In this document: one piece after another, positions 24,293 through 30,380 of the stretch
Layout: each line of letters opens with the position of its first letter
How positions within the stretch are numbered: position 1 is the first letter of the stretch
NCBI GenBank assembly: GCA_001910725.1
Contig: MJGA01000007.1
Coordinates: forward strand, 1,178,001 to 1,242,000
DNA: 64,000 nt
Reading direction: 5' to 3'
Source of the DNA: Phanerodontia chrysosporium
Lineage: Eukaryota > Basidiomycota > Agaricomycetes > Polyporales > Phanerochaetaceae
Program-made: the position numbers and the translations under genes
Notes under the pieces: generated by a model
Told to the model about the DNA's origin: nothing
What the model saw: the letters and a program-made list of their open reading frames with translations, nothing else
Databases searched by the model: none

Positions 24293-24301
24293 ATGGGGAA
24301 G
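24293..24301. repeat. Left target-site duplication (9 bp)
   Basis: ATGGGGAAG immediately precedes the transposon. The identical nine bases follow its right end at 30,372-30,380. Confidence 0.9.
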
Positions 24302-24431
24302 TAGTCTCGCCAGCCAGACCTTCCGGAGCTGATCTCCGATCCGGATGCGGAATACCTGACGGTGCATCCGAGCTCCAGAAGGTCTGGTGGCTTTACCCCC
24401 GTGACTCCTACATCGAGTCACAAGTGTGACA
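24302..24431 (+). repeat. Left terminal inverted repeat (bipartite, hairpin-forming)
   Basis: Compared with the reverse complement of the right end, bases 1-9 match fully, and bases 81-120 (24,382-24,421) match at 39 of 40. The 70 bp between have diverged but are the same length. This middle part can fold: 24,314-24,330 pairs with 24,371-24,387 (16 of 17) and 24,342-24,348 pairs with 24,364-24,370 (7 of 7). A second small hairpin, GTGACTC/GAGTCAC with a 7-nt loop, lies at 24,401-24,421. Confidence 0.9.
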
Positions 24432-24499
24432 AAATTGCGTGATCAGTCTGCGTGCTCCTGCCCGTTTTGCTCGCACAGACGCCACCACGCAGACACCAC

Positions 24500-27322
24500 A
24501 TGGACGAATTTGGCATGGACGAAGAATGGTTCGGCTCGGACGAGGAAGAAGAACCCATGGACGAGGGCTACGATAGCGACCGTCTTTCGGACATCTCCGA
24601 CTGGGACGAAGATCCTGCTGCCCCTTCAGCTCCGCAGGACCCCATACAATTGAAGAATACGCGGCGATTGTGGGCCAAGCTAAGGGGAGGCCCAACAGAC
24701 TACCGCGCGAAGGTGCGCAAGGTCCTGTACATGATGGACGTCGAAGGAATAAATCTGCCCATGTTCCTTCACCTTGTGTGCTGGGGAGATGACGGCTGCA
24801 TCAAAGACGAGAAAATTCGGTATGAACGGACCGCTCTCATGGTGAGCGAAGAGCTTCCCGGCATCTTATCTGCCATGCGCGAGCCTCCGCGCTCGAGCGA
24901 ATCACGATCTCACGCACGGCGACCTGCGGGAGCAGCCAAGGCGCTCAACGACTTTGCCGTCGACACTGTCAGCAACCTCCTGGACGACGAGCTCGAGCAG
25001 AGCACCCGCCTCTTCCGCTCCCCCGCAGACGGTCTCTCTGAGGCCGAACTCAATGGCTTCTCCATACGCGACACGGCGAAGCAGCTCGCAGAGCCGTCAG
25101 GAGCGCCCACTCTCGTGCGCATCCTTCGAGCAGCCATGGACAGGCAGCGTAGACCGCGCAAGAGGAGGCGGCCTGGTGAGGAGCGGAAGACACGGAAGGA
25201 CTTCGACGCGGTATGTTCGCAGTACTTTCATGTTGTTAGCCTCGTCTTATGCGCCTGATCAGATTGTAGTTATGCTTGTTAATACCTTGCAATACACACG
25301 TTCCCACAATGCAAATGCGTGGACGAAGCCTCTCACTCTTTATCTCAAGTACAAGGGAGCGTCTGCAAAGGCTCTCGATTTCATGCACACGCTGGGGATT
25401 ACCATGTCCCATAGCTGGTCAGTCCGTGCCTTCAGGAAGATATCTGCGCGGGCCCTCGAGCAGTTGCGCGAGATGGTTCGTGTACATCCCTGGCGCATCG
25501 GCCATGACAATCTCAACCTGCCCTTCGTCGCCTATTCCCAGAGGCTCAACAATCAGTCTCATTTCGATTCCGGCACCGTTGGGTCGATATTCATAAAACC
25601 GTCTGCACCGAGAGAGCCTCCGCTTTCTGCTATGGAGCTTCGGGAGGCTCAACGCGAAGGCCGCAAGCAACCGCTCACGGCCGTCGACCTTGCACGGCTG
25701 GACAGAGATGCGGCGCCCCGGCTACATGAGTGGAAGGTCTACTATGCCTTGCGCTACCTGCTCGACAGCCCGGAGTTTGGACTAGACACGTACACACACC
25801 GGAAGGACCCCATTCTGCAGGCCCCGCCGTCACTCCGTCAACTACCACATGGTGCTGAACATGTCACCAAGCAATGGGTGCTCGAGACGTTGCATCTCGA
25901 TGAGTCGACATACGAGGGCACGGATTCAATAATAAATTCGTATCTGCACATGCTCGATCTTGACTCGGACGAAGATCTGCGGGCTACAAGCCTGGACCAG
26001 GTGCTCGTATGGATTGGCGACCAACTAACGGTTGAGCGCATGCGTGGACTCGCCAACTATCGATGCGAGGACCGCAACAGCTTCGAGCGACTTGACTGGA
26101 TTTTGACGTCTTTCGGCTGGTTTCACCTGCTCATGACGTACGCGAATTCACTACACAAGCAATACTTTGGCACCACCTCCGGCCGTGGCCTCCGGCACGC
26201 GTTTGCGCTTTTACATCGTCGCGGACTCCAGTCAGCGCAGATCAAAGGCACCTTCTACCACCACCTTCATGAAGGCATCGAACATGTCGCAGAAGCACGA
26301 CTATTGACCGCCTGGCATGCACTTACGGGCGCCGTAAAGCTATCAGACTTGTGCGACAAGACTCCTGCGGACCTGAAAGCGCTTGCCGAGGAGCTTGTAT
26401 TGCGCTACGCGTCAAACGATGCCTTAGAAGACCACGATATGCTCCCTGATAACCAGCAAGACGGTTTACTACGTCAATCTATTATGTGGAACCGCGACAT
26501 CCTGCCGTATCTCATGCTTAATGACGCTATCAAGCGCGGCGACGTGGGCATGATGGAGGGGCTACTTCCTCACATGTTCTTTCGCTTCTCTGGCTCCGGC
26601 AACAACAAGTATGCAGGAGAGATATTAGAACTTCTCCAAGGACTTCACCGTGAGTGGTCCCCATCTGTTAGGTATGTCAATTCATGGTTTATTGCGTGCA
26701 TATACTTCCAAGTCACTTATTAATATTTTAAACAAGCGATTATGTCCGTCAGCACTGCTGGCTAGTTAACATGAAGGGTGGCGCCAGGGACTTCACCCCG
26801 TACGATCTCGCTATTGAGCATACAGTCAAAGACGTAAAAGTAACACTTCGACCGGGAGGGCCGTATGGCTCTTGGGAAGTTATGCAGCAGCGCAGCCCTG
26901 CTATCCCGACGCTTCGCACGCTGGGTGTACACATTGAAGCCGAATTTCCAACTGTCTCTCGTGGAGTCAAGCATAGCGCACCATCGAAGGATCAGGACGT
27001 CAAGCTGTTGCAACAACACTATGCATTATCGGGTATCTACGCAAACAAACAGCGCATACTCGAGTCAGACGACAACACTACTGATTATTTGATGAAAGGC
27101 TTCGATGACGGGGCCCGAAAAGTCCTTCCTGGGTGGGTTGAGAGGCGAAACGCATACATGCATGCATCACGACAGACCTGGAGTGACTACGCGAACGCAT
27201 CGGCGGCAGGGGACTCGGAGCCGCAGTCAGAGCTTAGTGAAGTGGCGCCCGGATGTCGGAACAAGGGGGATAGCGGTGGCAGCGGTGGAGGTGTCAACGG
27301 AGCCATGGCGGGATCTACATAG
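24500..27322 (+). CDS. DUF6589-family protein, probable transposase
   Basis: 901 residues from three exons (24,500-25,210; 25,263-26,671; 26,737-27,322); the introns of 52 and 65 bp are phase-consistent. An acidic N-terminus (DEEWFGSDEEEE) precedes the conserved region. Blocks I recognise from DUF6589 proteins are DNLN with SQRLNNQSHFDSGT, VLVWIGDQLTVERMRGL, YCWLVNMKG-like CWLVNMKGG, and IEHTVKDVKVT with a following HIEAEF. Candidate catalytic acidic residues are D319 (DNLN), D490 (GDQLT) and E734 (IEH), an inference from their conservation and spacing. The C-terminus is a Gly/Ser-rich tail. Start: the ATG at 24,500 (MDEFGMDEEW); an in-frame ATG at 24,452 would add a weak 16-residue leader. 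Its place inside TIRs with a target-site duplication supports a role in transposition. Confidence 0.88.
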
Positions 27323-27859
27323 TTGTGAAGATCAGTAGCAGCAACAATCGAAGTGGCATGTGAATGACGGGGTGCAAGCGGTGAACGCGGACTCTGCGGA
27401 GCGACACCAGGGCCGGATAATCGAGTGTTCGATCGTGCAGTTGGCGGTAGGGGACACAGACCGCTAGCGATAGTGCCATGGTCCTTGTTGTATGGCCCCG
27501 CGTATGGTGGTGGTGTGCAGCGTGTCGGCATGAGGCAAGCAGCCTGTATGTTGTGAAGTGGACGTGCTCGTGTGGAGGTGCGCACCACAGGTTCCGGGAC
27601 TGGCGGGAATAGACGTGGATCACTCCTGAACGAGGTTGCGGGTACTCCAGGCCCTACGAGAGCCTGCCAGGGTCGCATGAGAGTGTCTAAGATATAAATG
27701 AGCTCGAGTAAACGTCTAGACTAAGCATATTGCACTCACCTTCGGGGACTGGCAGCGGCAACACGTCGAGGGCATTCTCGACCATGCGCATATGACGGCT
27801 GCCTCGGTAGTCCATCTGTACAGCATCTGGGGGCACGGCAGCTGGGAGCCTCCGCTTCT
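27323..27859. other. Spacer between the two convergent transposon genes
   Basis: 537 bp between the two stops, expected to hold both polyadenylation regions. Several ORFs cross it, but none has a motif. I see no third gene. Confidence 0.5.
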
Positions 27860-30147
27860 CTATGGCCCCTTTGCCTTCTTCTCGCGAACTGCCTGCCGCT
27901 GTGCCTCGGCCGCCTTCTTCCTCTCCTCGGTGACCTGCCGCTTGGCAATGCGCCGTGCCTCCAGCTCGCGTCTTCTGTCCTCTGCCTGACGCCGCTTCTC
28001 CTCCACTGCCTCCTCTCTGGCTCGCTTCTGAGCCTCGACAGCGTCCTTGCGGCGTTGTTCGTGCGCAGTATCGAGAGCTGTGACAAGCTCGATGACCTCG
28101 CCACCATGTTCGTCCAAGAAGATCCAGGGTGGCTTGAGAACTCTGCGTAAGCCCTCGATTGACTTGCAGCCTCGGCGATGGCTTGCAATCGTTTGTACGG
28201 CACGGTCAGGGAGCAGGTTCATTGCTGAGAGGGAGCTAAAGGGGTACAGACGTCGTCGAGCGGTTACCCGCCACTTGCGGAGGCCCTCCTGCACATCTTT
28301 GAGGTGCTGATTGGTTCGCCTTTTAGGGGACAGAGGAGGGAGGCTAGGGTTGGTGTTCTCGACATCAGAGTGGTTGGAATGAGAGTCAGAAGGGCTGTCT
28401 TGTGCGTCCGGCTCGGCGTCACTCGAGGCAGCGTCACTGGTGTCACTGGAAGTTGCTGACTCGATATCGGATGGAAAATCGACAGAGCTCGGGGAGGTGC
28501 TCTGTTGTGGCATTGCTGCTTGCTGGGCAGCCTGTGAGCAATTGTCGCAGCACTCGTGGGGTCGGAGAGCTGGAGGTCGAAGTCAGAAGGTGATCCCATA
28601 TGAAACCAGAGTCTTACCGTGTGAACGAGGTGGATTATTGAAATGGGCGTCCAGAACCACGCGTCTGCACCCATTTGTCTCGAGCCACTCCCTTACACTT
28701 TCATCGACCATCTTCTTGAAATCTTGGCCGTCTTCAGGCTCTGCTGGCGTGGCCTGTTTGTCTGCTCCCCTCTTCCTCTTTCCAGGCTTCCTAGCAGCGC
28801 CCTTCTGGGTGACCGAGATCTCAACCAACATCACCGCACGGGCGCGCTTTCTCTGGGAGCGTCCAGCCCGTCCGGCTCGCTGAACCCAAACGGTGAGTGA
28901 ACTAGCCACTCCAAACTGAACAACGAGCTCTATGTCTGAGACATCCATTCCCTAGTACACCAATGGTAAGCAAAACGCACTCCAGCTACCGGGAATCACT
29001 CACCAATGCCGCCGCCTCAGTCGCGACAAGTATTCGGACTCTGCCTCTGGCAAACTCGTCCCAAACCTCGTGCTTCGAGCGTGGAGACCGAAGGGCATGG
29101 AATATACCAATGTGAGTCGCAAGAGCCGGCCCAACGAGCGTACGCAGCCGGCGAGCCACCGCATGTGTATCGGCACGTTTATTGACAAATATTATTGCTC
29201 GCGGCAGGTCTTCTCTCGTAGCATGGCCTGCCTTCTGCGTCGCCGCGTCCACAACAAAGTCAATCGCAGCCCAGTCCTCTGCCGACTTCATATACCGCAC
29301 TTCTTGGTAGAGATTTTGACGGTCGTTCCCCAGATTGAGGCAGAAGGACTTTTCCGTGCGGATTCGAAGCTTCCTCTTGACTTCGCTAAGTGCGGACGGT
29401 GTTAATGTTGCAGATGCGGCCAATACTGGGATTCCAAGCTCAGCAAATACATGTAGGTTTTCGAGTCTGCTGTACTCGGGTCGGAACTCCCCACCCCACT
29501 CGCAGATCATGTGCGCCTCGTCGACAACGAGAAGCCCGACCCTTTGTACAAATCTTGGGGTTGTAAGGAGTCTACGCAGCCTCTTGTTGTGTGCGAGCAT
29601 CTCGGGCGAAGTCAAGATCACTTGGACCTTGAAGTCCTCGATTTCCTGTCAGAGCATTGAGTCCTGTACAATGTGTGCTACTGAGTGAATGACGCACCTT
29701 GTGAAGCGCATCATTGTACGTCTCGCTGTTGACCGCACGAGCGCTGAGCCCCATTGCCGTGAAACGCGCAACCTGTCATTCATTAAGCTGAGTTCCGCAC
29801 ACAATTTCTGGCACTCTTACTTGGTCCCTCTCGAGGGCATTCAAGGGAGAGACGATGATCACAATTTTATTTGTAATGAACGCCGGCATCACAAAAGGAA
29901 GTGTTTTTCCAAACCCTGTCCCTGCAATAACTACCCCGTCGAGCCCCAGGAGCAACGCCTCCGCCACATCTAGCTGCCAAACATACGGCAGCTTCTCTTG
30001 GCACCTGCTCTTGAACTCGGCGGTCAGTTGCGCTCGCACAACCTTAGAGTTATAGTTGCGCTCTTCCCGGGCGTTTTCTCGGGCCGCCTCGAGCTTCGCA
30101 TAGAATTCCGGGTGAGTCGTTGGACTAGGCGGCGGCGGGGTTGCCAT
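27860..30147 (-). CDS. RecQ-family DNA helicase carried by the transposon
   Basis: A 3'-5' superfamily 2 helicase of the RecQ class, 695 residues from five exons (29,821-30,147; 29,698-29,772; 29,004-29,645; 28,618-28,951; 27,860-28,569). All four introns are 48-52 bp. Motifs: Walker A GTGFGKT (76-82), DEAH (176-179), the RecQ aromatic-loop type CEWGGEFRPEY just after it, SAT (212-214), TEAAALGMD, and motif VI QRAGRAGR (372-379). The RecQ zinc cysteines are present: C443 in CRR, then ECCDNC (466-470), the last created by an exon join. No RQC winged helix or HRDC domain is apparent. Instead there is a Ser/Asp-rich linker and a Lys/Arg/Glu-rich probable coiled coil at the C-terminus. It likely helps unwind or repair DNA during transposition (inference from context). 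Confidence 0.92.
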
Positions 30148-30241
30148 AGAAGGTCGCCAGAGAGCTATAGATGGAAGAACTGGGATGCGCAGGTGGACGA
30201 GCGTGGAATGATGGTGCAGAACGCGCAAAAAGAAGTCGCAT

Positions 30242-30371
30242 CGTCACGCGTGTGACTCGATGTAGGAGTCACGGGGGCAAAGCCACCAGACGTTCAGGAG
30301 CGTCGGATCGCCGAAGGCAACTGATCCGAAGGCCGCAGGCCCGCTCAACAACGGCTGGCGCCGCGAGACTA
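30242..30371 (-). repeat. Right terminal inverted repeat (bipartite, hairpin-forming)
   Basis: Mirror of the left end, with the outer GCGAGACTA and a 40-bp near-identical block at 30,252-30,291. Between them, 30,286-30,302 pairs with 30,342-30,358 (13 of 17) and 30,303-30,309 pairs with 30,323-30,329 (7 of 7). This is the same stem order as the left end but with different bases. The small GTGACTC/GAGTCAC hairpin is at 30,252-30,272. Confidence 0.9.
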
Positions 30372-30380
30372 ATGGGGAAG
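30372..30380. repeat. Right target-site duplication (9 bp)
   Basis: ATGGGGAAG directly follows the transposon end and is identical to 24,293-24,301. Confidence 0.9.

Follow-up and report, generated by a model that had tools for sequence, protein, structure and literature searches.

A window of 64,000 nt of the genome of Phanerodontia chrysosporium (GCA_001910725.1, contig MJGA01000007.1) contains a complete and recently moved transposable element that encodes a DUF6589 protein and a RecQ-type helicase. This element is probably a DNA transposon that moves autonomously by cut-and-paste, and it most likely belongs to the AcademH lineage; the DUF6589 protein would act as the DDE transposase and the helicase as an element-encoded helper. 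The main gain is a probable function for a Pfam family of unknown function, DUF6589 being the likely AcademH transposase, which links this family to transposons that carry a helicase, a kind that has received little study. Positions are those of the window, and loci elsewhere in the same genome (G000; 39.0 Mb, 145 contigs) are named by contig label, such as C1 or C124. The genome search scores only the best candidates, and all locus counts are lower bounds.

Limits of the Element and Its Second Copy

The inverted termini and the perfect 9-bp target site duplication reported in the original prediction were confirmed by direct reading of the ends (Table 1). Within the termini, described there as 130 bp long, the eight identical end bases and a 59-bp block (element positions 71–129, 91.5% identity) are inverted, but the similarity of the stretch between them is too low to be reported. 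The two genes are convergent as described, gene 1 (+ strand) starting 198 bp from the left end and gene 2 (- strand) 224 bp from the right end, in agreement with the predicted distance of about 200 bp.

The genome search proposed at that time, run with each of the two termini as query, revealed a single additional copy (C1:2050545-2056612) with the same ends and the same gene pair, which gives two copies in total. The two copies align from the left end to two bases beyond the right end, an overrun explained by the fact that both duplications begin with AT. The C1 copy is flanked on both sides by a different perfect 9-bp duplication of its own, ATCATCCGC, and the limits of the element are therefore more than a matter of chance. 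Four runs of G or C differ in length between the copies and there are no substitutions; since such differences in run length can be sequencing errors, the two copies may be identical.

The DUF6589 Protein and Its Predicted Triad

The introns of both genes were set by eye from GT-AG borders and reading frame, without transcripts. The spliced product of gene 1 belongs to DUF6589 (Pfam scan, E 8.8e-116) and is probably a DDE transposase, a role already suggested in the original prediction and now favored by a predicted RNase H fold with a predicted D, D, E triad rather than by biochemistry. E693 (E688 of P0001) is an alternative for the candidate glutamate E690, whose column holds a tyrosine in two divergent DUF6589 loci, C59 and C113:1331k.

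The Foldseek search alone gave no significant result for the DUF6589 fold, and absence from fold searches excludes no family in this analysis. The NCBIfam search returned no match, and none of the 65 pattern matches in a scan of viral contigs was a relative. DUF6589 is not mentioned in the literature searched, which comprised open-licence PMC papers only. The KDZ and MULE elements are DDE transposons of fungi for whose transposases Pfam holds models. The comparison with these profiles that had been recommended led to the rejection of both, as 31 DUF6589 proteins matched no transposase family besides DUF6589 itself in Pfam at E<=1. Other well-known DDE elements produce duplications of 8 bp (hAT, represented by Hermes, and the P element) or 5 bp (Transib/RAG1); they differ from the window element in these lengths and in having no helicase, and the DUF6589 profile matched no PDB sequence at E<=10. 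For MuDR-type elements, duplications of 4 to 10 bp are given in the available part of PMC10045372.

The Helicase and Its Proposed Role

The spliced product of gene 2 contains the DEAD (E 2.6e-22) and Helicase_C (E 3e-16) domains in the Pfam scan, and its closest solved structures are WRN (E 1.5e-33, the best of 157 PDB sequences) and then RECQ1 (about 1e-32), so that it qualifies as a RecQ-type enzyme by domain content and nearest relatives. Past the helicase core, the motif CCDNC was read by eye as a RecQ zinc site; the Pfam model RecQ_Zn_bind scores 17.4 bits, below its cut-off of 25.

In the proposed mechanism, the DUF6589 transposase would bind the element ends, cut them and attach them to target strands opened with a 9-bp stagger, and repair of this stagger would generate the 9-bp duplication. 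The helicase would be a helper retained by most transposase-bearing copies, whose likely job would be to unwind structured ends, or strands in excision or gap repair. We infer both the cut-and-paste mode and every step assigned to the helicase.

Pairing of DUF6589 and Helicase Loci in the Genome

The genome contains at least 17 DUF6589 loci (Pfam family search, 43 hits merged) and at least 25 helicase loci (window helicase as query, 36 hits merged). Of the helicase loci, 14 are located no more than 12 kb from a DUF6589 locus, against 0.28 expected by chance, and 11 no more than 5 kb, against 0.12 expected; in this count the broken C60 locus was entered as two, giving 18 places for 17 loci. A related helicase is encoded close to at least 14 of the 17 DUF6589 loci, which supports the earlier idea that the helicase is a mobile accessory. 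The unpaired loci are C73, C2:415k, and C83; C83 is related to the C2 element but shorter, and of the DUF6589 gene it retains just the end. The DUF6589 loci at C73:11620-12848 and C2:415272-416814, for which no nearby helicase match was seen, may be decayed, belong to a lineage without helicase, or have a helicase that is too divergent to be detected.

The genes are convergent, as in the window, in 11 pairs and divergent in three. The divergent order is confined to one lineage (C124:166608-174286, C135:614203-621893, and C2:940950-955467). The last of these and C87:46630-60974 each span about 14.4 kb, with roughly 8–10 kb extra between or inside the genes, which may correspond to nested insertions or cargo.

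Ends Shared Across Copies

Nine of the 14 gene pairs could be delimited (window, C1, C124, C135, C59, C102, C57, C87, and C2). Clean ends were not found at the other five (C69, C64, C113:1331k, C94, and C60), which may be degraded, nested or extend beyond the stretch read. A perfect 9-bp duplication flanks seven of the nine delimited pairs, and 11 of the 13 copies when all delimited copies are considered, the exceptions in both cases being C102 (8 bp) and C2 (8 of 9). The strongest independent case for the ends is provided by C124 and C135, which are 99.23% identical and are flanked by two different 9-bp duplications; the limits of their alignment, obtained without reference to any motif, fall on the TAGGCTCG and TAGTCTCG ends. 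The ends of the delimited pairs are TAGTCT-like except in C57 and C87, which start with CAGACT and have 142-bp terminal repeats, the left one being equal to the right one in C57.

TAGTCT-like ends with an exact duplication of 8–10 bp were found at six of the 11 loci tested (window, C1, C124, C135, C59, and C102); because the motif was taken from the window, the independent support amounts to four of nine other loci. In a control with 400 random hexamers the mean was 0.115 of 11 loci, and only three hexamers exceeded one locus; the counts (4, 6, and 4 loci) are those given by three hexamers that differ from TAGTCT at a single position. The objection, raised in the original prediction itself, that other gene pairs might never share these termini is contradicted by those four other loci.

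Four delimited copies lack the gene pair, namely C54, C122, and C80 (1.4–1.7 kb) and C83 (2.46 kb); they have the ends of gene-bearing families and perfect 9-bp duplications. A second objection had been that the termini might occur without relation to either gene. It is countered by the finding that the window termini were found only in the two gene-bearing copies and that the ends of these short elements are those of gene-bearing families. C54:70293-71986, C122:7450-8846, and C80:817315-818719 share their ends with the C57 family and are likely non-autonomous passengers; in C80, the one short copy read whole, frames between stops reach at most 142 codons. Further fragments are found on C33. 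A near-identical two-copy family together with short derivatives is a natural setting in which to study why a RecQ helicase is part of a DDE transposon, and DUF6589 genes of mushroom genomes, together with some annotated RecQ genes, may belong to mobile elements and not to host repair.

Shared History of Transposase and Helicase

The helicase and the transposase travel together throughout the recent groups, and their pairing recurs in the deep lineages. Three groups are common to the transposase and helicase trees (C124/C135/C2, C57/C87, and C60/C64/C69), the last two being sisters. The fragments underlying both the trees and the distances were query-anchored and between 134 and 901 residues long. 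For 12 loci, C135 being omitted as a duplicate of C124, the transposase and helicase distances correlate with r 0.92 (63 of 66 pairs, three being left out for fewer than 60 shared sites; 0 of 20000 permutations).

Several observations caution against reading this as a partnership preserved since the origin of the family. The correlation falls to r 0.44 with one locus per group (eight loci; 334 of 20000 permutations) and to r 0.10 for the seven deep lineages (7959 of 20000 permutations), so that the value of 0.92 rests on the recent groups. The deep nodes of the two trees also conflict; for example, the transposase tree places the window with the C57–C60 side (support 0.802), and the helicase tree with the two host-like RecQ loci (0.867). 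Identity at shared sites is 35–38% between the window helicase and the host-like locus C2:136k and 27–33% between the window helicase and the other element helicases, figures that are biased by the window-anchored fragments. For the deep lineages, a single old partnership is therefore not supported by the one-locus-per-group test and the host-like RecQ identities.

These discrepancies would be expected if DUF6589 transposons had captured RecQ helicases repeatedly, with no single ancestral partner. The fragments are short, saturated and favor window matches, the tree is unrooted and a slowly evolving window helicase placed beside the root would look alike, and pairing in nearly all lineages would demand many captures. 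Repeated capture, which is compatible with an AcademH transposon carrying a helper helicase, is thus possible but doubtful. The greater proximity of the window helicase (27860-30147) to the host-like locus C2:136k (L040) than to element helicases is a hint of a separate capture.

Possible Stem-Loops at the Ends

The left terminus contains a stem-loop with arms at 24314-24330 and 24371-24387 (fold z -5.25). Among 150-nt ends, six of 10 fold at z below -3, compared with one of 32 internal stretches: both ends of the window element (24302-24451 and 30222-30371), both of C57:586439-592633, and the right ends of C59 and C124. Four of the five lineages have at least one folded end, and no stem-loop was seen at four of the 10 ends tested (C124 left, C59 left, and both of C102). 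The z threshold was set with the values already in view, the controls received 40 shuffles and the ends 100, and the two C57 ends are one sequence; stem-loops are tentatively regarded as a feature of the element ends. RecQ enzymes unwind such folded structures, hence the ends and the helicase of the element may be matched to each other.

A bolder, improbable reading is that DUF6589/RecQ elements constitute a helicase-dependent class of DDE transposons, possibly apart from Academ, whose long stem-loop ends would need to be opened or resolved by RecQ during transposition. If so, the numerous mushroom DUF6589 proteins would be transposases of that class or genes derived from them.

Classification

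AcademH, a lineage of the Academ superfamily, was reportedly described by Kojima in 2020. The window element resembles it as a helicase-encoding DNA transposon of Basidiomycota with 9-bp duplications and low copy number (the two copies found being a lower bound). In the portions available, AcademH elements are reported to have duplications of 9 or 10 bp and AcademX elements of 3 or 4 bp, a difference tied to the presence of a helicase or a nuclease (PMC10045372), and AcademH elements are said to occur at low copy number in Basidiomycota, Ascomycota, and Mucoromycota (PMC10799480). The window element, with its helicase and 9-bp duplications, thus differs from AcademX, although AcademH and AcademX belong to the same superfamily. 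Its likeness to AcademH covers the helicase, the duplications, the low copy number and the occurrence in Basidiomycota. The accessible text of PMC8290104, PMC9587614, PMC12210899, PMC12730594, and PMC3017866 contains no Academ element sequence or end. The AcademH suggestion of the original prediction holds insofar as the helicase and the 9-bp duplication fit and AcademH is the best named home. Membership in AcademH is likely, and an undescribed transposon type, the other option given there, is unlikely.

A separate superfamily of helicase-bearing DNA transposons outside Academ, having reached the helicase and the 9-bp duplications independently, would agree with the lack of any Pfam transposase match among the 31 DUF6589 proteins and with the silence of the searched literature on DUF6589. 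Moreover, RecQ helicases are reported for KolobokH and one red-algal Kolobok element in the part available of PMC9587614, which indicates that helicase gain can recur. The combination of helicase, duplications of 9 or 10 bp and occurrence in Basidiomycota is, on the other hand, that of AcademH as reported in the available parts of PMC10045372 and PMC10799480. The chances of such a separate origin are accordingly slim.

Assignment to KolobokH itself is scarcely credible. The Kolobok target is TTAA, whereas the duplications found here are 9 bp of differing sequence. KolobokH, which has been reported from fungi alone, does resemble the window element as a DDD/E transposon with a RecQ helicase, but in KolobokH the helicase is encoded downstream of the transposase domain (PMC9587614, part available), whereas that of the window is a separate gene on the opposite strand.

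Table 1. Coordinates of the element and its features in the window.
Feature	Position	Strand	Remarks
Whole element, 6070 bp	24302..30371	.	Ends TAGTCTCG / CGAGACTA, read directly; second copy at C1
Target site duplication, 9 bp, ATGGGGAAG, left copy	24293..24301	.	Read directly
Target site duplication, 9 bp, ATGGGGAAG, right copy	30372..30380	.	Read directly
Left terminus	24302..24430	+	Subterminal block 24372-24430 pairs with 30243-30301 (92%)
Right terminus	30243..30371	-	Contains the inverted counterpart of the left block; stem-loop weaker than at the left end (fold z -3.28)
DUF6589 protein gene, 901 aa	24500..27322	+	Three exons: 24500-25210, 25263-26671, 26737-27322
Candidate catalytic Asp, D319 of 901 aa (D314 of P0001)	25506..25508	+	Predicted triad
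Candidate catalytic Asp, D490 (D485 of P0001)	26019..26021	+	Predicted triad; within GDQLT
Candidate catalytic Glu, E690 (E685 of P0001)	26619..26621	+	Predicted triad; within KYxxE
RecQ-type helicase gene, 695 aa	27860..30147	-	Five exons: 30147-29821, 29772-29698, 29645-29004, 28951-28618, 28569-27860
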